In this document: positions 53,012-63,954 of the stretch, one piece after another
Position numbering within the stretch: the first letter of the stretch is position 1
Layout of the letters: every line of letters starts with the position of its first letter
NCBI RefSeq assembly: GCF_038006205.1
Contig: NZ_JBBOUU010000001.1
Span: forward strand, 2,730,001-2,794,000
DNA: 64,000 nt
From: Solibacillus sp. FSL R7-0668
GTDB taxonomy: Bacteria > Bacillota > Bacilli > Bacillales_A > Planococcaceae
Direction: 5' to 3'
Notes under the pieces: model-generated
Database searches by the model: none
What the model saw: the letters and a program-made list of their open reading frames with translations, nothing else
What the model was told of the DNA's origin: nothing
Position numbers and translations under genes: made by a program

Positions 53012-53115
53012 GTTGTCTCCCCTTATTTTCCCCTTGCATGCTGTGCCTAGCCTACATTTTTATTTTGTCGATGAATACTTATAGTGATATGGACAAAAGA
53101 AGGGAGAAAGTGAAT

Positions 53116-53517
53116 TTGAATCCATTTAATGATCGCTATAATGAGTCTACGCCTATTGATTGGGACCAGCAGCAAAGATTTTTCCCACCTGGACCACCAA
53201 GTACACCAAGTATGCCTGGATATCCTGGGATGCCTGGAATGCCTGGAATGCCTGGCGGTGGACAAAACGCTCAACCAATGGGGCCTCCGCCTCAATTCGT
53301 TCCAACATCAACGAATTGGCAACAAGGTCCACCAAGAAGTATGCGTAGCTGTTTATATCGCAATACTTATGTTTGGTTAAATAATCGAGATGATTTTTGG
53401 TATTTCCCAACATTCGTCTCTCGAAATATGATTCTCGGTTTCAGATGGCGACACCGATTTGGCTGGGTTTTCCAACCACTCAACCCAAATAGCATTCGTT
53501 CATTCCAATGCTTTTAA
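53116..53517 (+). CDS. Met-Pro-Gly-rich protein of unknown function
   Basis: 133 residues from a TTG at 53116 (MNPFNDRYNESTPIDWD) with AAGGGAG 9 nt upstream; a GTG two codons earlier is possible. The centre is a low-complexity PGYPGMPGMPGMPGGG tract flanked by Pro-rich segments. The C-terminal 55 residues are compact and aromatic, with RSCLYRNTYVWL, FWYFPTFVSRN, FRWRHRFGWVF and a final QCF. It has no signal peptide or membrane helix. The layout, a collagen-like tract plus a small aromatic Cys-bearing domain, recalls spore-surface proteins, but I recognise no named family. Confidence 0.65.
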   Translation: MNPFNDRYNESTPIDWDQQQRFFPPGPPSTPSMPGYPGMPGMPGMPGGGQNAQPMGPPPQFVPTSTNWQQGPPRSMRSCLYRNTYVWLNNRDDFWYFPTFVSRNMILGFRWRHRFGWVFQPLNPNSIRSFQCF

Positions 53518-53796: not shown

Positions 53797-54723
53797 ATGA
53801 AAAAACGTTTCGTCACAACTGTTGCATTAGCGATTGGGATTAGTTCATTTTCTACGATGCCCGTAATCAGTGAACCAGCTCCTGTTCATGCTGCAAATAT
53901 CCAAAATAATGATCAAGCTGTTGCGAATAAAGCCAATCAGTTAATCAATACAGCAAAAAGTTTAATAGGAAAAGCAACTTACAGCAATACCGTATATAAA
54001 CCTACTGCACCCTATCAATTTTCATGTGCCACTTTCTTAATGTATGTTTTCGAGAAAAATGGCGTTGATTTAGCAACCTATAATGAAAACTATATGATGC
54101 AACAAGGAAGCTATGTACCACGTAGCCAGCTTCAAAAAGGGGATTTACTCTTCTTTAAAAGCAAAAAAACAGGAACAGACCCCGATCATGTTGGAATGTA
54201 CATCGGGAATAATAAAATTATCCATATGGCCGACTCCAAACAAAACATTGTTATTTCGGATTTAAATAGTAAGCCATACTATAAAGATAATTATGTCACA
54301 GCTCGTCGTGTACTACCGACATTAATGAGTGCAAACCCTGCAACAACTGGCGATAAAATTGTTGCAAAAGCATACGCTACGAAAGACCAAGCGAAAATGG
54401 GTTCAGTCAACAGTGATGCTTCATTACGATTTACTTCAGGCGGTTTTATTGAATATACATACCGTAAAAATGGTGTGTTACTGAAAACAAAATCAATTAG
54501 CGAGCAAATGAAGCTAGGGACAGCAGTTTCTAAAGCAAACTTAAAAAAAGGGGATTTAGTATTCTTCAATAGTACGAAGGGATCTAAAAAGCCAACACAA
54601 GTTGCAATTTATGCGGGTGACCACCGCTTAATCATCCCTACGAGTAAGGGCGTCATTACACGTGTATTACTAGTAGATTATTATAAGGATCATTATATTA
54701 CCGCTAGACGCGTAACGAAATAA
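53797..54723 (+). CDS. Secreted NlpC/P60 protein with one active and one degenerate domain
   Basis: 308 residues. A signal peptide (about 1-32, ending PAPVHA) is followed by two NlpC/P60 repeats. The first (about 50-175) has the Cys in QFSCATFLMY, the His in DPDHVGMYIGN and a third residue in KIIHMADS, so it should be a peptidoglycan endopeptidase. The second (about 200-308) aligns with the same spacing but has Ser for the Cys (FTSGGFIEY), Gln for the His (PTQVAIYAGD) and Ile/Pro at the third site, so it is probably inactive and may bind wall. GGAGG lies 8 nt before the ATG at 53797. Confidence 0.9.
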   Translation: MKKRFVTTVALAIGISSFSTMPVISEPAPVHAANIQNNDQAVANKANQLINTAKSLIGKATYSNTVYKPTAPYQFSCATFLMYVFEKNGVDLATYNENYMMQQGSYVPRSQLQKGDLLFFKSKKTGTDPDHVGMYIGNNKIIHMADSKQNIVISDLNSKPYYKDNYVTARRVLPTLMSANPATTGDKIVAKAYATKDQAKMGSVNSDASLRFTSGGFIEYTYRKNGVLLKTKSISEQMKLGTAVSKANLKKGDLVFFNSTKGSKKPTQVAIYAGDHRLIIPTSKGVITRVLLVDYYKDHYITARRVTK

Positions 54724-54736
54724 TCCAATTGAAAAT

Positions 54737-54780
54737 AGCTCTATCAGCTGTATTATAGACAGCGATAGAGCTGTTTTTTT
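54737..54780 (+). terminator. Strong terminator after the NlpC/P60 gene
   Basis: Long stem with AGCTCTATC/GATAGAGCT outer and GCTGT/ACAGC inner pairs, followed by TTTTTTT. Confidence 0.92.
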
Positions 54781-56170
54781 ATGATTCCTTCCTTTTTAAT
54801 TGCTCAGCGAATTGAATCATCGCGCGACTCGACATCGGGCCTTTAATGAGCAATAGGGATTTCCTATCTAACTGTTGCTTTAACAGCTCATAAACGCCTT
54901 GAGTATCCTTATACATATAGACGTTTGCTGTTGTCCCGTCTTCTATTGCTTGTTTGGCAATATACTCCGCTTTTGACCCAATGGTAATTAACGTGTGAAT
55001 CGGATAAGTTGCGACTAAGCTACCTAAATCCATATGATATTTTTTTTCGAATTGACCCAATCTTTTAATATCCCCTAATACTAAATAACGCTTCTTCCCT
55101 TTTCCGATCGAATCTAACACTTTTAATGCGGCTTCTAGCGAGGTAGGGTTATTGGTCCACGTATCATCGATAATCGTGCTTCCGCCAACTCCCTCTGAAA
55201 ATTGCAAATGCCTTTCCATTTGTTCAAAGGTTCTCAATCGTAAAATAGCCTTTTGTACAGACAAACCAAGCTCATGAATGACAGCAAGCACCGCTAGCAC
55301 ATTATATACTTGATGCTCCCCGTAGCCAGGTATATACGCCTGATACGTTTTATGATTAATGTGAACCTGAAATTTCATGCCTTTTGCTGCAAATTGAACG
55401 GCTGTGGCATAAATATCTGCTTTATTTTTGATGCCGAATGTAAATACTTTATTCGGATATGTTGATAAAGGAATTTTTTTTGTATTTTCATCATCACTAT
55501 TAATGATTAATGTTCCACCCGCGCGTATTCCATCGAGTATTTCAGATTTTGCTTTAATGTAGCCCTCTAAATTTTTACAGCCATCTAAATGATGTACACC
55601 AATGTTTGTAATGACACCAATTGTTGGCTGGTAAACCTGACATTGATAGCTGATATTTCCCGTATTCCCTAAGCCCAATTCAAATACCGCTGCTTTTGTA
55701 TTATCATCAATCCCTAATAGATACGGTAAGGATTGACGCGGTTCATTTTTACTGCTTACGGATGTTTGAACATTCATGTCAGTACTTAATATATGTTTAA
55801 GTATTTCTTTCGTAGTCGTCTTTCCACAAGTGCCTGTAATGGCCACAACAGGAAGATCAAACAAATTCCGATAATATGTGCAAAATGCAAAGTATGCTTG
55901 TAAAATATTCCGAACATATATAATCGTTATAGAAGTAGCTGCTCGATTTTGCAGTTTTTCCGTTGCATCACAAACAATTAATAGATGCTTTATTTTATTC
56001 AATTCTTTCCAATTCACTTCATCACTTTTGCGGACAAATAGCATTGTATTCGGTGCGATTAATTGCTGTGGATCATAGTTCATCACCTGTTTCACATACC
56101 AATCTTCCGCACCGTGTACTAATTGCCCTCCTAGCAATTGCCGAATCGTTTTTACATGTAAAGCTCGGAT
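54779..56170 (-). CDS. MurF-like ligase A, probable non-canonical ATC start
   Basis: Mur ligase family protein (ATP-dependent amide bond formation), 463 residues if started at 56170. Motifs: P-loop VAITGTCGKTTTKEILKHIL, ELGLGNTGNI, TNIGVHHLDGCKNLEGYIKAKSE in two parts, GEHQVYNVLAVLAV and DDTWTNNPTSLEAAL, where MurF has a DDAYNANPxS-like motif. No ATG, GTG or TTG lies between the in-frame upstream stop and Leu at 56137. The codons before 56137 (RALHVKTIRQLLGG) align with the start of the paralogue at 58148-59524, and ATC at 56170 falls 7 nt after GGGGGG. The alternative is a truncated form from TTG 56137. Substrate unknown. Confidence 0.82.
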   Translation of the reverse strand: MRALHVKTIRQLLGGQLVHGAEDWYVKQVMNYDPQQLIAPNTMLFVRKSDEVNWKELNKIKHLLIVCDATEKLQNRAATSITIIYVRNILQAYFAFCTYYRNLFDLPVVAITGTCGKTTTKEILKHILSTDMNVQTSVSSKNEPRQSLPYLLGIDDNTKAAVFELGLGNTGNISYQCQVYQPTIGVITNIGVHHLDGCKNLEGYIKAKSEILDGIRAGGTLIINSDDENTKKIPLSTYPNKVFTFGIKNKADIYATAVQFAAKGMKFQVHINHKTYQAYIPGYGEHQVYNVLAVLAVIHELGLSVQKAILRLRTFEQMERHLQFSEGVGGSTIIDDTWTNNPTSLEAALKVLDSIGKGKKRYLVLGDIKRLGQFEKKYHMDLGSLVATYPIHTLITIGSKAEYIAKQAIEDGTTANVYMYKDTQGVYELLKQQLDRKSLLLIKGPMSSRAMIQFAEQLKRKES

Positions 56171-56203
56171 AAAATCGCCCCCCTTTAATTAGGTTATGAA
56201 AGT

Positions 56204-57493
56204 TTATCCCTCTTCATTGGGTAATCTATACATTCGTTTATAGTCCATGATTGTGTTGTACATCGCTGGATCTTCAAGTTTTATAAATAGTGACACATCT
56301 GGTGCATAATTCCCTTCAATAACCCATATCTGCCCATAATCGGTTACTGCTATATCAAAGCCAATGATCCTTCTTTCTGCTGATTGGTCAAGCAAATAGG
56401 ATGCGGCTAAGCAAATAGCATCAATCCGACTTTCGAGTTGCCGATGAAACTTTGGATGTATAGTGGAATGTCGTAGTGCTTGTTGCCAAGTCAAAATCGC
56501 TTGAGCAGCATTTGTCACAAAAAAATGAGGACCAGCAACTTTTACTAATTTTCCTGTAATACGCCAATCCTTTGCTGTTTTTTGCGTCATAACTCTGATA
56601 TCAGAAAATCGATTATCGATTGTTGCCAATGCAATACCACGTTGAATAATATAGAAATCTTCCATTGGAGCCATTTCACAAATATGTGCATATACTTGCT
56701 TGATACCCGCTATCACCCATTTTTGTCTTCCTTTATGAATTTCATAATGACACATTCTTCTTTTGTGAATTTTAATAATCCCTTTTCCTTGTTGCCCATT
56801 ACATGGCTTTAAAAACACAAGTGGATAGTCATTCAAATAGGAATAAAACGTTGCCATCGTCAGTAAATCTGTTTTGGGCATGACATGTGCAAGGCTTTGA
56901 TATTGATTCCATTTGCTAATAGAAAAATGGAGAAATGAATCGGTAATGGCGATATCCCCCACAATATTAAATAGCACCTCAATCACAATGGATTCACAAT
57001 GAGGATAAAATAGTCCCAACTGCTCAGCCGCTATGAGCGCAATGTTTTGTATTTGAACCTGATGCTTATAATAAGCTACTATTTCAATATTACTACTCAT
57101 TTGTCTGGATGAATGCGTAACATGCCAGCATCCATTGCGCCTTTGTACAGTAATAAAACGGCGATAGCTTCTTTTAGTGAGAAGTGTCGAATGAGAGTGC
57201 AATTGCATGATAAAATTTCGTTCACCAATAATTTGTTGAATAGATTCATAAAGATCTGCTTCTAAAACCTCAACAGTAGCAACATTCGTTTTTATCTGAT
57301 ACGTTTCTTGATTTTTTGTCACAGTTATAAAATCCAAGCCCAGAATTGGTTTTAAAAAGATTTGCTTTGCCTCTTTCAACATTGTATTCAAAGCGGTTTT
57401 TGAAAAACGTTCATTCGAAACTAAATACGGTTGCAAATGCTCATGTTGTTCAAGTATTTGATTTTGTACGATTCTCCCCCTAATCGCATGCAT
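56204..57493 (-). CDS. YheC/YheD family ATP-grasp protein
   Basis: 429 residues. Residues about 200-425 form a YheC/YheD ATP-grasp domain (YPLVFLKPCNGQQGKGIIKI, YIIQRGIALATIDNRFSDIRVM and RIIGFDIAVTDYGQIWVIEGNYAPD in segments). B. subtilis YheC and YheD are endospore coat-associated, but their chemistry is not known to me. The N-terminal 200 residues have no clear family. The ATG at 57493 has GGGGGAG 5 nt upstream. The MurF-like ligase A gene lies 33 bp downstream on the same strand, so an ATP-grasp plus Mur pair is probably co-expressed. Confidence 0.85.
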   Translation of the reverse strand: MHAIRGRIVQNQILEQHEHLQPYLVSNERFSKTALNTMLKEAKQIFLKPILGLDFITVTKNQETYQIKTNVATVEVLEADLYESIQQIIGERNFIMQLHSHSTLLTKRSYRRFITVQRRNGCWHVTHSSRQMSSNIEIVAYYKHQVQIQNIALIAAEQLGLFYPHCESIVIEVLFNIVGDIAITDSFLHFSISKWNQYQSLAHVMPKTDLLTMATFYSYLNDYPLVFLKPCNGQQGKGIIKIHKRRMCHYEIHKGRQKWVIAGIKQVYAHICEMAPMEDFYIIQRGIALATIDNRFSDIRVMTQKTAKDWRITGKLVKVAGPHFFVTNAAQAILTWQQALRHSTIHPKFHRQLESRIDAICLAASYLLDQSAERRIIGFDIAVTDYGQIWVIEGNYAPDVSLFIKLEDPAMYNTIMDYKRMYRLPNEEG

Positions 57494-57518
57494 AATAGCT
57501 CCCCCGATACATTGTATA

Positions 57519-57550
57519 AAAGCCCCCTCAATTGATCATTGAAGGGACTG
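57519..57550 (-). terminator. Possible terminator or attenuator between the Cys-rich gene and the YheC/YheD gene
   Basis: CCCTCAAT/ATTGAAGGG-type stem around TGATCA followed by CTTTTAT on the minus strand. The tail is weak, so read-through into the YheC/YheD gene is likely. Confidence 0.5.
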
Positions 57551-57569
57551 CATTCGCATTAATGCACCG

Positions 57570-58007
57570 CTAACTTTGACAGCCTAAAGCAACAATCGAT
57601 CCTTGTGCAACGGGTACAGCCCCCCCTTGATTAAAGAATCCTTTAATGACAAAGCTTTGAACTAAGTCATGATTAGCAGATGCTACTTGATCTCTAAATA
57701 CCGCTTCAAATGGGTATTCTGTCACTCCAATAAGCCCTGTACCGTGAACCGTTACAACACAGTTCTGCCCCTCTTTTTTACATGTTACATCTGTAATTTC
57801 ATTTGCTGTAAATAAAAAATTAAAATGATTTGGTGTTTCAGTGTCTTCAAATCGTAATGATAGCGTAGAAGCACTTAGCGTTGTAATACATACATTGGCA
57901 AGGTACGTTAAATTTCCACGAATATTTCCATTAACACCATCAAACTTAACATTGACGCATTTTGCAAAAGCATCGACACGTACACCACACGGACAAACTC
58001 CTCCCAT
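57570..58007 (-). CDS. Small Cys-containing protein of unknown function, probable spore-surface protein
   Basis: 145 residues with seven Cys, beginning MGGVCPCGVRVDAFAKCVNV and ending in GSIVALGCQS. The middle is rich in beta-forming residues (NLTYLANVCITTLSAS, NCVVTVHGTGLIGVTEY). There is no signal peptide or membrane helix. The GGGGGGG ribosome site lies close before the ATG. It sits between a MurF-like gene and a YheC/YheD gene, in a cluster with a CotY/CotZ-like protein. A Cys-rich, beta-rich small protein in such a place suggests a cross-linked coat component or the acceptor of the ligases; both are inference. Confidence 0.7.
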   Translation of the reverse strand: MGGVCPCGVRVDAFAKCVNVKFDGVNGNIRGNLTYLANVCITTLSASTLSLRFEDTETPNHFNFLFTANEITDVTCKKEGQNCVVTVHGTGLIGVTEYPFEAVFRDQVASANHDLVQSFVIKGFFNQGGAVPVAQGSIVALGCQS

Positions 58008-58147
58008 AGGTTCCCCCCCTTTCTCGTAAGATTAATACACTATATTCATATAACATTAACGATACTTGTGTATTTGCCATTGATAGCTTTATCGCCTAGA
58101 TATATGTCCCGTATAAATTTTTTTCAATTAAGCCTCCGATCATGTGC

Positions 58148-59524
58148 TTATGTTTTTTTCTTCAATTTTGTCGCTAAGTCAAACATTGTTTTGCTATACA
58201 TATCCCCTTTTATTAAAATTATCGTATTGGAATCAATGCGATTTTTTAATAGTTCATAGGCTAATACACTATTATTAAAACAATATACTTGCGCCTGTAT
58301 CCCTAATGCTAGTGCATGATTAGCAATGATTTTGGCATGCTCCCCAACCGTTATGAGTACATCCACGCCCTTGTCTAGTACAATTTCTGCTGCCTTTTTA
58401 TGAATAAATGTCCCCCATGGGCCGACATCCGTAATGGTTCCGATAATGGCAATCCTTTTTTTTGTACCGGCAAGTTCATTTAATACAATTAAGGCTGCTT
58501 CAAGTGATGTGGTTGTAATGCTCCACGTATCATCCAGTAGGAGCACACCGTTCATCCCTTCGAATAATTGAAGCTGTTTATTCAACGGACGAAACGTTTG
58601 TAGCTGTTCTGCTGCTTGAGGTATCGTTAAACCCATTTCAACTACTGCCACAATAGCAGCTAACGCATTCATTACTTGATGTTTTCCAAAGCCTGTGACG
58701 CCTATTTTATGGTACTCTCCCTTATGAACGATGACAAACTCCATACCCGTTGTACTGTAGCGAATATTAGTCGCTATATAATCAGCAGAATTTTTCGTAC
58801 CAATTTTTATGAGTCGCCCTTTGAATTTTTCGAAATCTATTTTACTTGTATTTGGATCATCAGCATTAATGATCAACACACCATTCGCATCTACTATTTC
58901 TAACATTTCTGCCTTTGCGTCGATATAGCCCTCCAATGTTTTACAGTAATTTAAATGGTGTTCACCAATATTCGTAATAATGCCTATCGTTGGCTTGAAG
59001 TACTTTCCAGCCCTTCGTAAATCTCCCGGTGCCCCTACAGCCGTTTCAAAGACGGCTGCCTCCGTATCACTTTCAATGCTTAATAAATAATGAAAAAAGG
59101 CGGTCCTTGAGTTCGTGCTAAGTTGTGTTGCCGTCACTTTTTTATAACGCATTAAAATATGTTTAATCATTTCCTTCGTTGTTGTTTTACCTGCTGTTCC
59201 TGTAATAGCCACAACCGGTAACTGAAACTGCCCGCGATAAAAATTAATAAATTTCCATAATGCTTCCTCTGTATGCTGTACATGAATGATTGCCACTTCA
59301 CTTGGTAGCTCTTGTGTGCGATAATGCGATTCTGTCACAAGTACAAGTGGATAATAAGGCGCTAATTTTGCCCAATTCATAATATGTTTTTCAATAAATA
59401 ACACCGTATTGCGCTGTTTTACCTGTTTTAATCGATAAGCCCCAAAATGAATAGCAATGGATGGTCCATGTATGTGTGTGCCATTAATAATGGTACATAA
59501 TGTTTCAACAGAAATTGGTTTCAT
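58148..59524 (-). CDS. MurF-like ligase B
   Basis: 458-residue Mur ligase family protein, clearly a paralogue of the protein at 54779-56170. Motifs: VAITGTAGKTTTKEMIKHIL, ETAVGAPGDLRR, TNIGEHHLNYCKTLEGYIDAK in two parts, GKHQVMNALAAIVAV and DDTWSITTTSLEAAL, where the Asn-Pro of MurF is lost. The N-terminal 90 residues match the UDP-MurNAc-peptide domain of MurF only loosely. A sigma-K-like promoter lies at 59548-59577. The cell-wall MurF gene should be elsewhere in the genome, so I infer a different acceptor. Confidence 0.85.
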   Translation of the reverse strand: MKPISVETLCTIINGTHIHGPSIAIHFGAYRLKQVKQRNTVLFIEKHIMNWAKLAPYYPLVLVTESHYRTQELPSEVAIIHVQHTEEALWKFINFYRGQFQLPVVAITGTAGKTTTKEMIKHILMRYKKVTATQLSTNSRTAFFHYLLSIESDTEAAVFETAVGAPGDLRRAGKYFKPTIGIITNIGEHHLNYCKTLEGYIDAKAEMLEIVDANGVLIINADDPNTSKIDFEKFKGRLIKIGTKNSADYIATNIRYSTTGMEFVIVHKGEYHKIGVTGFGKHQVMNALAAIVAVVEMGLTIPQAAEQLQTFRPLNKQLQLFEGMNGVLLLDDTWSITTTSLEAALIVLNELAGTKKRIAIIGTITDVGPWGTFIHKKAAEIVLDKGVDVLITVGEHAKIIANHALALGIQAQVYCFNNSVLAYELLKNRIDSNTIILIKGDMYSKTMFDLATKLKKKT

Positions 59525-59547
59525 CCTACGTTCCCCCCCTTCACTCT

Positions 59548-59577
59548 TAGCATATGTACGATGAATTTTTGGAGGTA
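59548..59577 (-). promoter_or_regulatory. Sigma-K-like promoter of MurF-like ligase B
   Basis: Minus strand TACC, 17 nt, CATATGCTA (CATANNNTA), 24 nt upstream of the ATG. The -35 element overlaps the ribosome site of the divergent small ORF. Confidence 0.55.
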
Positions 59578-59582
59578 GATAT

Positions 59583-59675
59583 TTGAATTACATAGGATGG
59601 ATAACCAGACAAAAAAGATCTACAACCATACATTTAAGAGTAGGTATATTCAACAATTCGAATGGAGGTGAATGA
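59583..59675 (+). CDS. Putative 30-aa small ORF ahead of the ATP-grasp gene
   Basis: TTG at 59583 with GGAGG 7 nt upstream. The peptide starts MNYIGWITRQKRSTTIHLRV and ends IFNNSNGGE. Its TGA stop (59673-59675) lies one base before the ATG of the ATP-grasp gene, and the last codons contain that gene's GGAGGTG ribosome site. This is the arrangement expected for translational coupling or a leader peptide. There is no homology evidence. Confidence 0.5.
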   Translation: MNYIGWITRQKRSTTIHLRVGIFNNSNGGE

Positions 59676-59676
59676 C

Positions 59677-60882
59677 ATGAAGACGATTATTTTTATTGGC
59701 ACTAATAAATCTGGCTCAAGCAGGGAGGCAACAAAAGCAGCTGAAAAGCTAGGTTATTTTACAGTGCTATTGACTAATAATGAAAGACAATTTGAACAAC
59801 GTGAACAATACGTAGATATCCATAAAATGATTTTTGTGGATACTTCAAATATGGAGGCAATGAAAGCTGAAATTATGAAACTTCAAAGCATCGGATTAGA
59901 TATTAAAACGATTATTAGCTTTGTGGATCCCTATGTACATGTAGCTTCTATGCTTTGTGATATATTTTGTCAAAATCTCACCTCTTCAAAAGCAATTGAA
60001 ATGATGGAGGATAAAGAGGCGACACGCAAGCTTTTACAAAACACATTATACTCCCCACAATTTACAGTGATTGCACCAAGCGAAAAACCATCTGGCAAAT
60101 TAACCTTTCCTATTATTATAAAATCTCCTAAATCAACGGGCTCAAAGGACGTATTATTAGCAAAGGACATCAAGGAATTCAATAAGCATCTTGCAGCACT
60201 TCAATATAAATATCCGAGTGAATCCATTATTTCAGAAGAATACTTAAAAGGAGAACAATATTTAGTAGAAGTCATTGTACAAGAACATCACCCCCATATT
60301 ATCGCCGTTATGAGACAAGACATTACAAAAGGAAAACGCTTCATCATTACTGGCTATCAGCTTTTCGCCAACATACCGTCCAATTTAGTAACAGGCCTTG
60401 AAACACTATGCCAATCCATTGTAGACATATTCGATATAAAAACAGGCGCTTTTCATTTAGAATTGCGACTTACGGGCAATGGCTGGAAGCTGATTGAAAT
60501 CAATCCCCGTATATCAGGTGGGGCAATGAATCGAATGATTGAGGCTGCATTTGGATACAATTTAGTAGAGCAAACATTAAAACTCTTTCTCGGAGACAAA
60601 GCTGATTTCACACCTAAACACTACCATTTTGTCTACACGAAATATTTAATTGTTCACAAAAAAGGAAGATTAGAAAAAGTAACAGGCAAGCTACGTGCCT
60701 TAAAATCCCCTGGCATATTCGATGTCTATATCAAACCAAAAAAAGGCACAATCCTCATCCCGCCTTTATCTATGGGACATCGATATGCCTACATCATTGC
60801 ACAAGGCAGTTCTATTAGTGAGGCGGTATCACGTGCTAATCGAGCAGCTCACGAAATAAAATTCCACATGAAAAGTATATAA
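59677..60882 (+). CDS. ATP-grasp protein, L-amino-acid ligase type
   Basis: 401 residues: N-terminal pre-ATP-grasp region (IIFIGTNKSGSSREATKAAE), ATP-grasp core (TFPIIIKSPKSTGSKDVLLA, ISEEYLKGEQYLVEV, KLIEINPRISGGAMNRMIEA) and a C-terminal domain. The INPR motif and the layout fit enzymes such as BacD/YwfE that join amino acids through acyl-phosphates. The ATG at 59677 follows GGAGGTG. It is the only plus-strand gene of the Mur/ATP-grasp cluster. Dipeptide or amino-acid ligation is a family-level guess; the substrate is unknown. Confidence 0.82.
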   Translation: MKTIIFIGTNKSGSSREATKAAEKLGYFTVLLTNNERQFEQREQYVDIHKMIFVDTSNMEAMKAEIMKLQSIGLDIKTIISFVDPYVHVASMLCDIFCQNLTSSKAIEMMEDKEATRKLLQNTLYSPQFTVIAPSEKPSGKLTFPIIIKSPKSTGSKDVLLAKDIKEFNKHLAALQYKYPSESIISEEYLKGEQYLVEVIVQEHHPHIIAVMRQDITKGKRFIITGYQLFANIPSNLVTGLETLCQSIVDIFDIKTGAFHLELRLTGNGWKLIEINPRISGGAMNRMIEAAFGYNLVEQTLKLFLGDKADFTPKHYHFVYTKYLIVHKKGRLEKVTGKLRALKSPGIFDVYIKPKKGTILIPPLSMGHRYAYIIAQGSSISEAVSRANRAAHEIKFHMKSI

Positions 60883-60884
60883 GT

Positions 60885-60925
60885 AAAAGGCTTTACGAAA
60901 AGAGAACACTTCCGTAAAGCCTTTT
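60885..60925. terminator. Bidirectional terminator between the two converging ATP-grasp genes
   Basis: Perfect 13-bp stem AAAAGGCTTTACG/CGTAAAGCCTTTT (60885-60897 with 60913-60925) active in both directions. Confidence 0.9.
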
Positions 60926-60935
60926 ATTGTGTAAT

Positions 60936-63188
60936 CTATGCTTTAAATTGGTTATCTAAAAATTGGATTGTTTCAAACATATTGGTTTTACTTGCACCCT
61001 TCACTAAAATCGTATCGCCTCTTCTTACCAAGCCTTTTAGAAACAAATGCAATTGGTCCTTGTTAATAAAATGGTGAATGTTCTTTGCCGGTATCCCACT
61101 CTTTTGCGCGGCTATTCCGATTTCCTCTGTCCGGAATCCGTACGTAATTAATTGATCTATTTTTTTATCCCCAATATAGGCACCAAGCTTGCGGTATTCT
61201 TCTTCTCGTAAGTCCCCTAATTCACGCATTTGCCCGATAATCGCAACTGTTCGCCCTTTAGCAATCTCACCTAATACATCCAGTGCAGCACGAACGCCTT
61301 GGGGATGAGAATGTACCGTGTCATCAATTAATACAATATCATTGCGGCAATGGTAAAGCGTTAATCGTCGCGGTGGCTTTTTGAATACTAAGCCTGCCTG
61401 AATCTCCTCGGCTGAAAAGCCTAATTGATCTGCTACTGCAATCGCATTTAATGCATTATATACATGGTGCTCCCCTAAAATCGGAATAAACATCGCCATT
61501 TCCTTGTTTCCTAGCTGGATGTGGAAAGTCATGCCATCATCCTTATAGGACACATCATAGGCCATATAGTCTGCCTGTTTATGAATACCAACTGTTTTAA
61601 TTTGTCCTTTAAACGCATCCGTTAAGAGCCATTTCGAATTATCATCGTCTTCATTTACTATGAGTAATCCTTGCTGGTCCATCCCTTGTATGAGCTCGGA
61701 TTTGGCTTTTGCCACGCCTTTAATATCCCCATCAAAATTTCCTACATGCGCTAATCCGATATTTGTTACTACGCTAATATTCGGCTGAATAATTTCACAA
61801 TGACTGGCGATAACACCCGGATAAGCCATGCCGTATTCTAGTACAACCGCCTTATGGGATTCGTTAATAAGCTCCTTATGCTTTTTCGTATGCTCCGTCG
61901 TATTCCAATAATCCTTTGATTCAAAAATAGACCATTTTTTAGATAAGATGGAGGCAATGAATGCCTTGGTCGTTGTTTTTCCTGCACTTCCTGTAATCGC
62001 AATGATTGGTTTTTCATTTGTTTCCCCTGTACTTTCAGTCATTGGTGCTATTGGCTTTTCAGTTGTTTTAATCTCTACACGCTCTGTAACGGGAGAAATG
62101 GGTTGTTTTGCTGGAGTACGGTTTATGGCAGCTTGAATTTGCGCTGTTATTTCCTGCTGATGATGGGCTAAATAATGCGCATATTGAATGGTATGTTTGA
62201 CTACGTCTAGTTCCAAGTAAAAGGCAGGGGGACATCCCGGTCGCCAATTTACTTCATAAATCCAAAGCTTGCCGTTTTCATCTAAGCCGACATCAATGCC
62301 GATTTCATCAATGACCTCCTGAAATTTAACCATTTGAATATCATCTAAATGGCGTGCCAAAGACAAGCCAAAATGCTCTAGCATCCGCTTAATATTAAAT
62401 GCTTCATCAGGAAATTGTAATTGTAAAAAGGGTTCTAAGTAATTTGTAAAACCACCATTATTAATATTTGGAATAATCGAACCTTGGGGCGCAACACGAG
62501 GATAGACGGTCGTAATGATCCATTCCCCTTGACCATTTTTTTGAACATGAATTCGAAAATCAAATACTTGCCCGCTTTTCAAGGTGGATTGAATATAGGG
62601 CTGTAAAATAAACGTTTCTACGGCTAAATGCTGTTGTAAAAATAGGTCGAGCTGTTCCTTAGTGAATCGTTCCTTCCCTGTATCCTTTTGTACTTCATAA
62701 CCATTTGCTAGCTTTGAAATAAAGTAGATTCCCTTCCCCTTACGACCTTCCACTGGTTTAAAAACAACCTTTTTATAAATTTGAATATGCTGATAAAATT
62801 GTGCTTCATTTTTTACACTTATTGTAGGAATGAGGTAGCTCGCAAACTCCTTCCCTTCTTGCAAGCGTTTAGTAATATTCAATTTATTGCCGATTGAATT
62901 TGTCGTGAAGGGGATTTCTTTGCGTAATAGCCTTAAAATATTTTTGGAGATGGCTAATTTTTCTGGACTTCCTGCGTTATAAATCACATCAGGAAAGGGA
63001 ACCGTTTTTTCCTGCCAAACCCCTTCTTCTAAAACTTTTGCTTGAATTGTTCGTGTCGTAAAATTAACCGCTCTCGGAGTAAAATAATAAAATTGCATTC
63101 CTTCAGCCTTAGCAACTGCTGCAAAGGCGTATGATTTCAACACGGTTTCGGGATCTTTCCGATGATGCAACATGCCAATTATTGTCAC
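60936..63188 (-). CDS. YheC/YheD ATP-grasp and MurF-like ligase fusion protein
   Basis: 750 residues with two catalytic modules. Residues about 1-345 are a YheC/YheD-type ATP-grasp (IPFTTNSIGNKLNITKRLQ, KKVVFKPVEGRKGKGIYFI, VFDFRIHVQ, EIGIDVGLDENGKLWIYEVN). A Thr/Pro-rich linker (about 365-395) follows. Residues about 395-750 are a Mur ligase (IIAITGSAGKTTTKAFIA, VTNIGLAHVGNFDGDIKGVAKAK in two parts, GEHHVYNALNAIAVAD, DDTVHSHPQGVRAAL). ATP-grasp followed by Mur ligase is the order in cyanophycin synthetase. Start GTG 63188, GGAG 9 nt upstream. It follows the CotY/CotZ-like gene by 24 nt. Confidence 0.88.
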   Translation of the reverse strand: MTIIGMLHHRKDPETVLKSYAFAAVAKAEGMQFYYFTPRAVNFTTRTIQAKVLEEGVWQEKTVPFPDVIYNAGSPEKLAISKNILRLLRKEIPFTTNSIGNKLNITKRLQEGKEFASYLIPTISVKNEAQFYQHIQIYKKVVFKPVEGRKGKGIYFISKLANGYEVQKDTGKERFTKEQLDLFLQQHLAVETFILQPYIQSTLKSGQVFDFRIHVQKNGQGEWIITTVYPRVAPQGSIIPNINNGGFTNYLEPFLQLQFPDEAFNIKRMLEHFGLSLARHLDDIQMVKFQEVIDEIGIDVGLDENGKLWIYEVNWRPGCPPAFYLELDVVKHTIQYAHYLAHHQQEITAQIQAAINRTPAKQPISPVTERVEIKTTEKPIAPMTESTGETNEKPIIAITGSAGKTTTKAFIASILSKKWSIFESKDYWNTTEHTKKHKELINESHKAVVLEYGMAYPGVIASHCEIIQPNISVVTNIGLAHVGNFDGDIKGVAKAKSELIQGMDQQGLLIVNEDDDNSKWLLTDAFKGQIKTVGIHKQADYMAYDVSYKDDGMTFHIQLGNKEMAMFIPILGEHHVYNALNAIAVADQLGFSAEEIQAGLVFKKPPRRLTLYHCRNDIVLIDDTVHSHPQGVRAALDVLGEIAKGRTVAIIGQMRELGDLREEEYRKLGAYIGDKKIDQLITYGFRTEEIGIAAQKSGIPAKNIHHFINKDQLHLFLKGLVRRGDTILVKGASKTNMFETIQFLDNQFKA

Positions 63189-63212
63189 AAATTTACACTC
63201 CTTTTTATCCTT

Positions 63213-63638
63213 CTACCATTTCGATTCAATATAATACTTTTTACTTAACAGTGCTGGCTCTAAAAGTTGGATTGCCAGCATGGAACTAAAATCCAGAGTT
63301 ATCTGTGTATCCGTTTTTTCTAGCCGAATAACATCCTTTATGGCATTTGTAGGCTGCTCCTCTAGATCAAATGCGTCTAAAAGCGTTAATATCACGCGGG
63401 ATGCTTCTATTGCCTCTAAGCGAAAGAAGCTTGTTGCTGTATGCTTTTTTGGATTTATCGTTGTGTACAATCTACATTCCTTTGTCGTAAAGCAAAATGG
63501 TATAGTATCGCTCCCTACAAGCTTTTCAAAAAAATGACCGTAATACTTTGACCAAGAATTCGCGAGCAAGTCTTGCATTTGTTTTAAATCGTTTAGTGCT
63601 CCATATAATACAGGTTGCTTATGATTTTCATTATTCAC
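63213..63638 (-). CDS. CotY/CotZ-like spore coat protein lacking most cysteines
   Basis: 141 residues. The arrangement GSDTIPFCF, then TSFFRLEAIEASRVILTLLDAFDLE in two parts, then DTQITLDFSSMLAIQLLEP parallels the CotY/CotZ/ExsY pattern (DTIPF, FFRVE, ATL-LL-A-D, then a VDLSCFCAIQCL-like end). The clustered Cys of that end are replaced by Ser, Leu and other residues; only two Cys remain (CF and EC). Start GTG 63638 with GGGGGAGAGG upstream. A sigma-K-like promoter lies at 63713-63742. The family call rests on pattern recognition and needs a profile search. Confidence 0.65.
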   Translation of the reverse strand: MNNENHKQPVLYGALNDLKQMQDLLANSWSKYYGHFFEKLVGSDTIPFCFTTKECRLYTTINPKKHTATSFFRLEAIEASRVILTLLDAFDLEEQPTNAIKDVIRLEKTDTQITLDFSSMLAIQLLEPALLSKKYYIESKW

Positions 63639-63712: not shown

Positions 63713-63742
63713 TACGATATGACTGTGTGTGAATGATTGGTG
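63713..63742 (-). promoter_or_regulatory. Sigma-K-like promoter of the coat-like and fusion-ligase genes
   Basis: Minus strand CACC, 17 nt, CATATCGTA (CATANNNTA), about 75 nt upstream of the GTG at 63638. Confidence 0.6.
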
Positions 63743-63954
63743 ATAGGTTATGCCTAATTATTGCAATTTCAATTTTGTTTTTCTCGCTTTCTACGTTTCG
63801 TGGCTGTGCCTGTAGATTTTAAATAAACCCCAACTGACCACTACTGTTTTATGTTTATTGGCACTTTTAGCCGTGTCAAATTTTTGATAAGGTATCAATA
63901 ATCGCGAAACAACAATTAATCAGCTGAACGACAACATCTTGGAGGGCTTATTTT
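63743..63954. other. Upstream region of the edge gene
   Basis: No gene seen. A short inverted repeat TTGATA-AGG-TATCAA at 63884-63898 lies about 57 bp upstream of the last gene start and may be a regulatory site. Confidence 0.35.

Follow-up and report, generated by a model that had tools for sequence, protein, structure and literature searches.

A Spore-Linked Cluster of Mur-Ligase and ATP-Grasp Modules in Solibacillus as a Candidate Cyanophycin-Synthetase-Like Pathway

Introduction

Cyanophycin synthetase (CphA1) carries an ATP-grasp domain followed by a Mur-ligase domain in one chain, and a published account describes its G (ATP-grasp) and M (Mur) domains as taking turns on a single chain (PMC9262961). 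The same domain order, with two-site acyl-phosphate ligation presumed, is found in a fusion protein of Solibacillus sp. FSL R7-0668. The fusion gene lies within a 64,000-nucleotide stretch of the 4.2-Mb genome (C1:2730001-2794000, referred to here as the window) and belongs to a cluster of six amide-ligase modules, two of which are joined in that single protein. It differs from cyanophycin synthetase in that a YheCD domain replaces the G domain of CphA, the Mur module is nearer to MurF, and the system is spore-linked.

Parts of the cluster also resemble other described systems. YheC and YheD of Bacillus subtilis share its PF14398 ATP-grasp family, mother-cell-type promoters, and link to the spore, whereas in the window YheCD is joined to a Mur module in one chain or has Mur ligases and an L-amino-acid ligase as cluster neighbors. 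YheD is reported to surround the B. subtilis spore as a shell, with its function unassigned as of 2021 (PMC7911427), and yheC and yheD are placed under the control of sigma-E/SpoIIID (PMC517825). MurF (UDP-MurNAc-tripeptide:D-Ala-D-Ala ligase) has central and C-terminal ligase domains, a P-loop, and metal and ATP residues in common with the Mur modules of the cluster, but the N-domain and GNxNN motifs are lost in the latter, and the fusion has no N-domain at all. L-amino-acid ligases, such as BL00235, 4wd3, and BacD, combine ATP-grasp with LAL_C2 (over cut-off), as does the ligase of the window, which is distinguished by its coat-gene context and by a second paralogue located 5′ of the CotZ-like gene in 10 of 34 clusters. 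Enzymes of this type make dipeptides.

The reading favored here, with a probability of roughly 55%, is that the cluster represents a mother-cell, non-peptidoglycan amide-ligase pathway that works like cyanophycin synthetase and supplies the spore coat with an isopeptide chain. Its sequence-level base consists of the parts themselves, conserved ATP and metal residues, co-inheritance, restriction to spore formers, -10 boxes, and repeated coupling of YheCD with Mur modules. The cluster is built from known enzyme superfamilies. None of the open-licence PMC papers listed has a title that deals with a YheCD-Mur fusion or such a cluster. Novelty is not absolute, since the work of Iyer et al. in 2009 on amidoligases may mention YheCD or YheCD-Mur neighborhoods. 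A paper on graspetides makes no mention of Yhe, spore, Mur, or cyanophycin (PMC8939145).

Organization of the Cluster

The cluster contains three Mur-ligase modules, two YheC/D ATP-grasp modules, one ATP-grasp module of the L-amino-acid-ligase type (LAL), a CotZ-family protein, and a Cys-rich protein, with an NlpC/P60 hydrolase adjacent. An earlier sequence-only reading of the window, all of whose open reading frames (ORFs) were found where it had placed them, had recognized three MurF-like and three ATP-grasp modules. The former are borne out by Pfam matches to Mur_ligase_M and Mur_ligase_C in all three. The latter all belong to the ATP-grasp superfamily, with YheCD matches in 56204-57493 and in the N-terminal half of the fusion, but 59677-60882 is of the LAL type rather than YheCD, since it matches LAL_C2 and ATP-grasp_4.

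The fusion (60936-63188, minus strand) comprises a YheCD ATP-grasp module at residues 1-355 (~63188-62124), with a PF14398 score of 205.1 bits against a cut-off of 26.8, and a Mur module without an N-domain at residues 391-750 (~62018-60939). The other YheC/D-type ATP-grasp protein, Yhe1 (56204-57493, minus strand), scores 170.9 bits with the same model and has a conserved GFD...EGN region. Its N-terminal half gives a partial second YheCD match (32.8 bits) that is perhaps the trace of an internal duplication. YheCD matches in the genome number three, in two proteins, all within the cluster. The ATP-grasp metal residues D, E, and N are conserved in the YheCD modules of both proteins, which also show weak similarity to tubulin-tyrosine ligase (TTL) and MptN-type enzymes (E-values of 0.0014 and 7e-6, respectively, for the fusion, and 7e-4 and 6e-4 for Yhe1). 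LAL (59677-60882, plus strand, with an alternative ORF start at 59662) is the sole PF18603 match in the genome, at 65.1 bits against a cut-off of 29.4. Its nearest entry in the PDB is 3vot, the L-amino acid ligase BL00235 (2e-23), and 4wd3 and BacD are also relatives.

Coupling of YheCD and Mur modules occurs in three states, namely a YheCD-Mur chain, a Mur-YheCD chain, and adjacent separate ORFs. The window-type order in a single chain is YheCD followed by Mur. The reverse order in a single chain was identified by Pfam in L074 (801 aa), from the same family, and in L208 (797 aa), from another class. Unfused neighbors overlap by four bases in three loci (L111, L112, and L119), adjoin in L149, and are separated by a small gap in L161, while in L207 the second frame starts directly after the stop of the first. 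L207 and L159 represent the same contig and were counted once. The occurrence of opposite fusion orders in separate branches argues that the two activities serve one substrate.

YheCD also occurs in other settings. In another class, three loci (L220, L221, and L223) have YheCD-like ORFs in rows of four or five, accompanied by a ~510-aa protein that matches PF14395 in L220. Such arrays beside a COOH-NH2 ligase resemble the cluster in gathering several amide-ligase families, YheCD among them, in one place. They differ in the PF14395 ligase (identified in L220) and in having a MurF-like gene nearby in the opposite orientation.

The two small proteins of the cluster had both been noticed in the sequence-only reading. 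The Cys-rich one, P145 (57570-58007, minus strand), is indeed present as a protein of 145 aa that is predicted to be all-beta. It has no Pfam or NCBIfam match, its AlphaFold2 model reaches a pLDDT of 86.7, and the predicted fold has no PDB fold match at E ≤ 0.001. Among 12 homologues, scattered Pfam matches (E-values of 0.02-0.09) occur in one homologue each and are mutually inconsistent. The Cys pattern of P145 suggested an endospore-appendage (Ena) protein; with no PDB fold match at E ≤ 0.001, this identity was rejected. The protein described as CotY/CotZ-like (63213-63638, minus strand), encoded directly 5′ of the fusion, belongs to a family in which 14 of 16 aligned homologues, the window protein included, match Spore-coat_CotZ (PF10612) at E ≤ 0.01 (best 1.9e-11), with a conserved TIP and T..FR core. 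The window protein itself scores 21.4 bits, which is below the cut-off of 24.

Mur Modules and Cell-Wall MurF

Besides the fusion, Mur modules are found in MurF1 (54779-56170, minus strand), a MurF-like ligase with a degenerate N-domain, and its sister paralogue MurF2 (58148-59524, minus strand). Under the curated NCBIfam MurF model TIGR01143, which has a cut-off of 288.6 bits, MurF1 (261.2), MurF2 (240.8), and the fusion (257.1) all fall below the threshold. The canonical MurF of the host, which scores 424.6 bits, is encoded elsewhere in the genome (C1:3615799-3617163), and none of the three modules is thus the only MurF. The strongest match in the search for the host MurF (C1:818317) was rejected, as it is MurE. 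Identity of MurF1, MurF2, and the fusion Mur module to the host MurF is 21-29%.

In MurF, the SxDTR...NGHxF motifs of the N-domain serve the UDP-substrate. These motifs are kept in the host MurF but absent from the alignment of MurF1 and MurF2, and the N-domain is missing entirely from the fusion. Likewise, the GNxNN motif (GNFNN in the host MurF) is exchanged for the subfamily motifs NEPR, NSRT, and YWNTTEHT in MurF1, MurF2, and the fusion, respectively. Other conserved motifs of MurF1 are GTCGKTT, SSxNEPR, and DDTWTNNPTS. The alignments show that the cluster modules retain the P-loop, which binds ATP, the Glu and His of the metal site, and the Asp of the ribose site. Since a canonical MurF is encoded separately and the UDP-substrate motifs are lost, these comparisons support a role separate from vegetative cell-wall synthesis, as had been proposed at the outset.

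A tree of 43 rows places MurF1 and MurF2 as sister groups (support 99/100). The fusion Mur module groups (96/88) with short Mur ligases that lack an N-domain, away from vegetative MurF; members of this clade belong to the same order or to other classes of the phylum and include the reverse-order fusions. In the region L212:3924-11199, a short Mur ligase has as neighbors three DUF3880/glycosyltransferase-LysM proteins and a polysaccharide deacetylase, another possible envelope-modification setting. An additional paralogue resembling MurF1 and MurF2 (41-47%) exists outside the cluster in four genomes (G117, G057, G135, and G233).

The start of MurF1 deserves comment. There is no ATG, GTG, or TTG at 56170, and the first common in-frame start is at 56137. 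Judged by eye, translation likely begins with an ATC at 56170 behind a good ribosome-binding site. The candidate ATC start (region 56137-56185, minus strand) is also seen in near relatives (L040-L043), and an ATG stands there in other genera.

Conservation and Distribution

Two sets of loci were compared. The first comprised 34 loci (L039-L072), two of which end at a contig end, and the second comprised the best 80 of 128 relatives, some of them cut by contig ends. Because loci were mostly chosen for the fusion, synteny counts from these sets are not independent evidence of co-occurrence, and that evidence comes instead from genome-wide searches of 261 genomes of the order.

The recurring gene order among the 34 loci is CotZ, fusion, LAL (opposite strand), MurF2, P145 and Yhe1 where present, MurF1, and NlpC (opposite strand), with variable outer flanks. 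CotZ was counted in 30, the fusion in 33, LAL and MurF2 in all 34, MurF1 in 33, and NlpC in 32, with P145 and Yhe1 in an identical set of 15. Counts among the 80 loci were 58 for CotZ, 75 for a fusion in one chain, 77 for LAL, 71 for MurF2, 31 for P145, 36 for Yhe1, 59 for MurF1, and 69 for NlpC; here, the linkage of P145 and Yhe1 was incomplete, with 1 and 6 exceptions. Genera represented among the best 80 of 128 relatives include Lysinibacillus, Solibacillus, Psychrobacillus, Sporosarcina, Metasolibacillus, Lederbergia, Neobacillus, Peribacillus, Heyndrickxia, Domibacillus, Jeotgalibacillus, and Calidifontibacillus, plus one Clostridia metagenome-assembled genome. The nearest genome with the cluster (G120) is of the same genus.

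The genome-wide searches returned the fusion (both halves matched) in 79 genomes, MurF1 in 82, MurF2 in 81, and LAL in 102, and all 79 fusion carriers passed for all four genes. The modules thus co-occur in relatives, and with synteny across genera and genome-wide co-occurrence, the set is beyond chance. Because a computed open frame may run past a stop, as in G303, frames were rechecked, and a single long frame was present in 78 of the 79 carriers (33 in L039-L071, 44 by frame check, and G228 with a frame of 731 aa). The exception is G249, whose fusion is broken (longest frame 508 aa), as is its MurF2. The best MurF1 match of G135 is a 43% paralogue, so that MurF1 proper occurs in 78 of the 79. 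Passes without a fusion were seen for MurF1 in G141 (a match at a contig end), G066, and G206 (the latter two weak and paralogue-like), and for MurF2 in G141 and G066. LAL occurs without the fusion in 23 genomes, 21 of which have a partial fusion match, and four loci (L075-L078) read YheCD-CotZ-LAL, an arrangement that looks like an older core. Matches at E ≤ 1e-55 turned up in 34 genomes of a 398-genome sample of the phylum, and most of those listed cover the Mur half only.

A locus of Sporosarcina thermotolerans (L158, on the same contig as the G249 hit and counted once with it) has its fusion, MurF2, Yhe1, and NlpC frames all in pieces, through either decay or sequencing errors.

Link to Sporulation and Promoter Boxes

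SpoIVA was used to gauge the link to sporulation. It was detected at E ≤ 0.001 in 197 of the 261 genomes, and in 192 of these the match exceeds the curated cut-off. Each of the 79 fusion carriers possesses it, as does each of the 24 genomes with a partial match, and the fusion occurs in 0 of the 64 genomes that lack it (Fisher 2.4e-12, a value that ignores relatedness and is merely indicative, as the genomes are related). The spore link that had been suggested from promoters and YheC/YheD homology is therefore supported.

The suggested sigma-K-like promoters and, indirectly, the question of vegetative expression were addressed through promoter boxes. The -10 box CATANNNTA was scanned in the 200 bases upstream of each gene plus 60 bases into the ORF, in 24 representative genomes hand-picked from the 34. 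Scanning for this single box against control genes was a post hoc choice, made after a strict two-box pattern gave few matches. The box was found upstream of CotZ in 15 of 22 cases, the second LAL in 6 of 8, MurF2 in 16 of 24, and MurF1 in 13 of 23, as against 12 of 143 control genes (shuffled expectation 19.3). Frequencies were low for LAL (4/24), P145 (2/11), Yhe1 (0/11), the fusion (1/24), and NlpC (5/23; shuffled 4.0). All 34 genomes gave a similar picture (CotZ 22/30, MurF2 24/34, MurF1 18/33, and controls 13/208). A GerE-like box lies 17-27 bases upstream of the -10 box in 11 of 24 cases for MurF2 and 8 of 23 for MurF1, and in none of 143 control genes.

Boxes of sigma-E/K type in the window, all on the minus strand, are CATAACCTA for MurF1 (56190-56198), with a GerE-like ACCCAA 24 nt upstream; CATATGCTA for MurF2 (59548-59556); and CATATCGTA 5′ of the CotZ/fusion pair (63713-63721), with a further CATAACCTA at 63744-63752. 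Mother-cell-type -10 boxes are thus strongly enriched, but the -35 element does not separate sigma-E from sigma-K. In the CotZ promoters of Lysinibacillus-type loci, an ATATT-like element was judged by eye to be nearer sigma-E, so that both sigma factors are possible.

Proposed Pathway and Alternatives

A product, an acceptor, and a localization of the pathway can be inferred as follows. LAL would make a dipeptide block out of free amino acids, the fusion would use its YheCD half to extend a carboxylate by one amino acid via an acyl-phosphate, and the Mur half, lacking a UDP-binding domain, would add the next or a side-chain residue. The ATP-grasp and Mur sites would thus alternate on the same growing substrate, with a carrier other than a UDP-sugar. 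MurF1, MurF2, and, where present, Yhe1 may add more residues with differing specificities. The putative product is an isopeptide, oligomeric or polymeric, that would be deposited on or linked to coat proteins, with the CotZ-like protein and P145 as candidates. Its trimming or turnover may fall to the NlpC/P60 hydrolase.

Cyanophycin itself, a polymer of Asp and Arg, was rejected, and the fusion is not assigned to the CphA family. The NCBIfam cyanophycin model gives the fusion 57.5 bits against a cut-off of 850, and no cyanophycinase passes the cut-off in the host genome (best 32.2 bits against 126.6). CphA1 (7lgn) is the only one of 50 listed fold matches with an alignment long enough that it has to cover both halves of the fusion (933 columns, E-value 6.9e-12; the next longest covers 452).

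Several observations weigh against the cyanophycin-synthetase-like reading. The 7lgn match has an rmsd of 25.4 and a TM of 0.25, and the AlphaFold model of the fusion is poor (pLDDT 65.7, pTM 0.48); the match therefore supports domain order only, and no domain geometry is claimed. By sequence, each of the three Mur modules matches MurF entries of the PDB better than CphA entries (E-values of 9e-41 versus 9e-8 for the fusion, 3e-46 versus 2e-6 for MurF1, and 7e-40 versus 1e-12 for MurF2). MurF2 carries Lys-Gln at a position that is Arg in other Mur modules, which makes its activity less sure. The fusion, P145, Yhe1, and LAL have no -10 box of their own above chance, the strict two-box sigma-K pattern is rare (0-15% for most genes and 40% of 10 second-LAL genes), and the strict sigma-E pattern was found in no cluster gene of the 34 loci. 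The NlpC/P60 neighbor also fits a peptidoglycan role. Lastly, 10 of 16 same-genus genomes lack the fusion at E ≤ 1e-60 and all have SpoIVA, so the system is dispensable for sporulation and accessory.

The weak likeness of the YheCD domains to TTL and MptN-type enzymes would suit a different arrangement, in which a coat protein (CotZ-like or P145) receives amino acids from the ligases at its C-terminus or on its side chains, in tubulin-tyrosine-ligase fashion, with no free polymer. The sharing of the same 15 of 34 clusters by P145 and Yhe1, and the position of the CotZ-like gene, with its -10 box, directly 5′ of the fusion, point the same way. However, P145 and Yhe1 do not go together in 7 of 80 loci, CotZ-like C-termini are only moderately conserved, and Mur ligases, to our knowledge, act on small molecules, UDP-peptides, or polyamides. 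Such tailing of proteins is considered unlikely. The dipeptide-forming habit of LAL-type enzymes, together with the relationship to 3vot, 4wd3, and BacD, would agree with a small diffusible peptide (a protectant, signal, or antimicrobial) made in the mother cell, but Pfam finds no transporter or resistance protein among ten proteins scanned and a coat-protein-family gene sits within the core, which makes a diffusible product improbable.

Peptidoglycan itself could be the target if the MurF-like ligases and NlpC/P60 made and trimmed an altered stem peptide of the cortex or germ-cell wall during sporulation. In keeping with this, a region the size of an N-domain persists in MurF1 and MurF2, the PDB entries most closely related to the two are MurF or contain it, and the NlpC/P60 gene is conserved beside MurF1. 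The loss of the N-domain motifs and of GNxNN, the missing N-domain of the fusion, the failure of 3/3 modules to reach the MurF cut-off that the host MurF clears, and the lack of -10 enrichment at the NlpC gene all speak against a cortex variant, which is judged quite improbable.

If the cyanophycin-synthetase-like pathway is real, it would add a layer to the known chemistry of the spore surface and represent a new family of polyamide synthetases. It offers a concrete enzymatic hypothesis together with an assayable fusion enzyme, and the cluster occurs in several Lysinibacillus and Solibacillus hosts. We know of no established non-ribosomal amide polymer of the endospore coat. More tentatively, spore formers might have evolved a cyanophycin-synthetase-like polymerase of their own through repeated fusion of YheCD with a short Mur ligase devoid of an N-domain, with MurF1, MurF2, and LAL as partners, to build a non-ribosomal isopeptide layer at the spore surface; this would suggest a role for the long-unassigned YheC/YheD coat proteins.

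Neighboring Genes

The sequence-only reading had held that no other peptidoglycan gene is present, which proved incorrect. A gene for an NlpC/P60 protein (53797-54723, plus strand; PF00877, 120.6 bits), with a signal-peptide-like N-terminus by eye, lies next door, convergent with MurF1, and is kept there in 32 of 34 clusters. Farther out, 1.8 kb from MurF1, is a CofE-like F420_ligase (PF01996; 51785-52972, plus strand), which was set aside as a candidate seventh ligase, being labelled in 4 of 40 loci (L039-L042). Near the NlpC gene, a 159-aa protein (53038-53517, plus strand) without a family match contains a GMPGMPGMPG tract and has relatives in L042 and L043.

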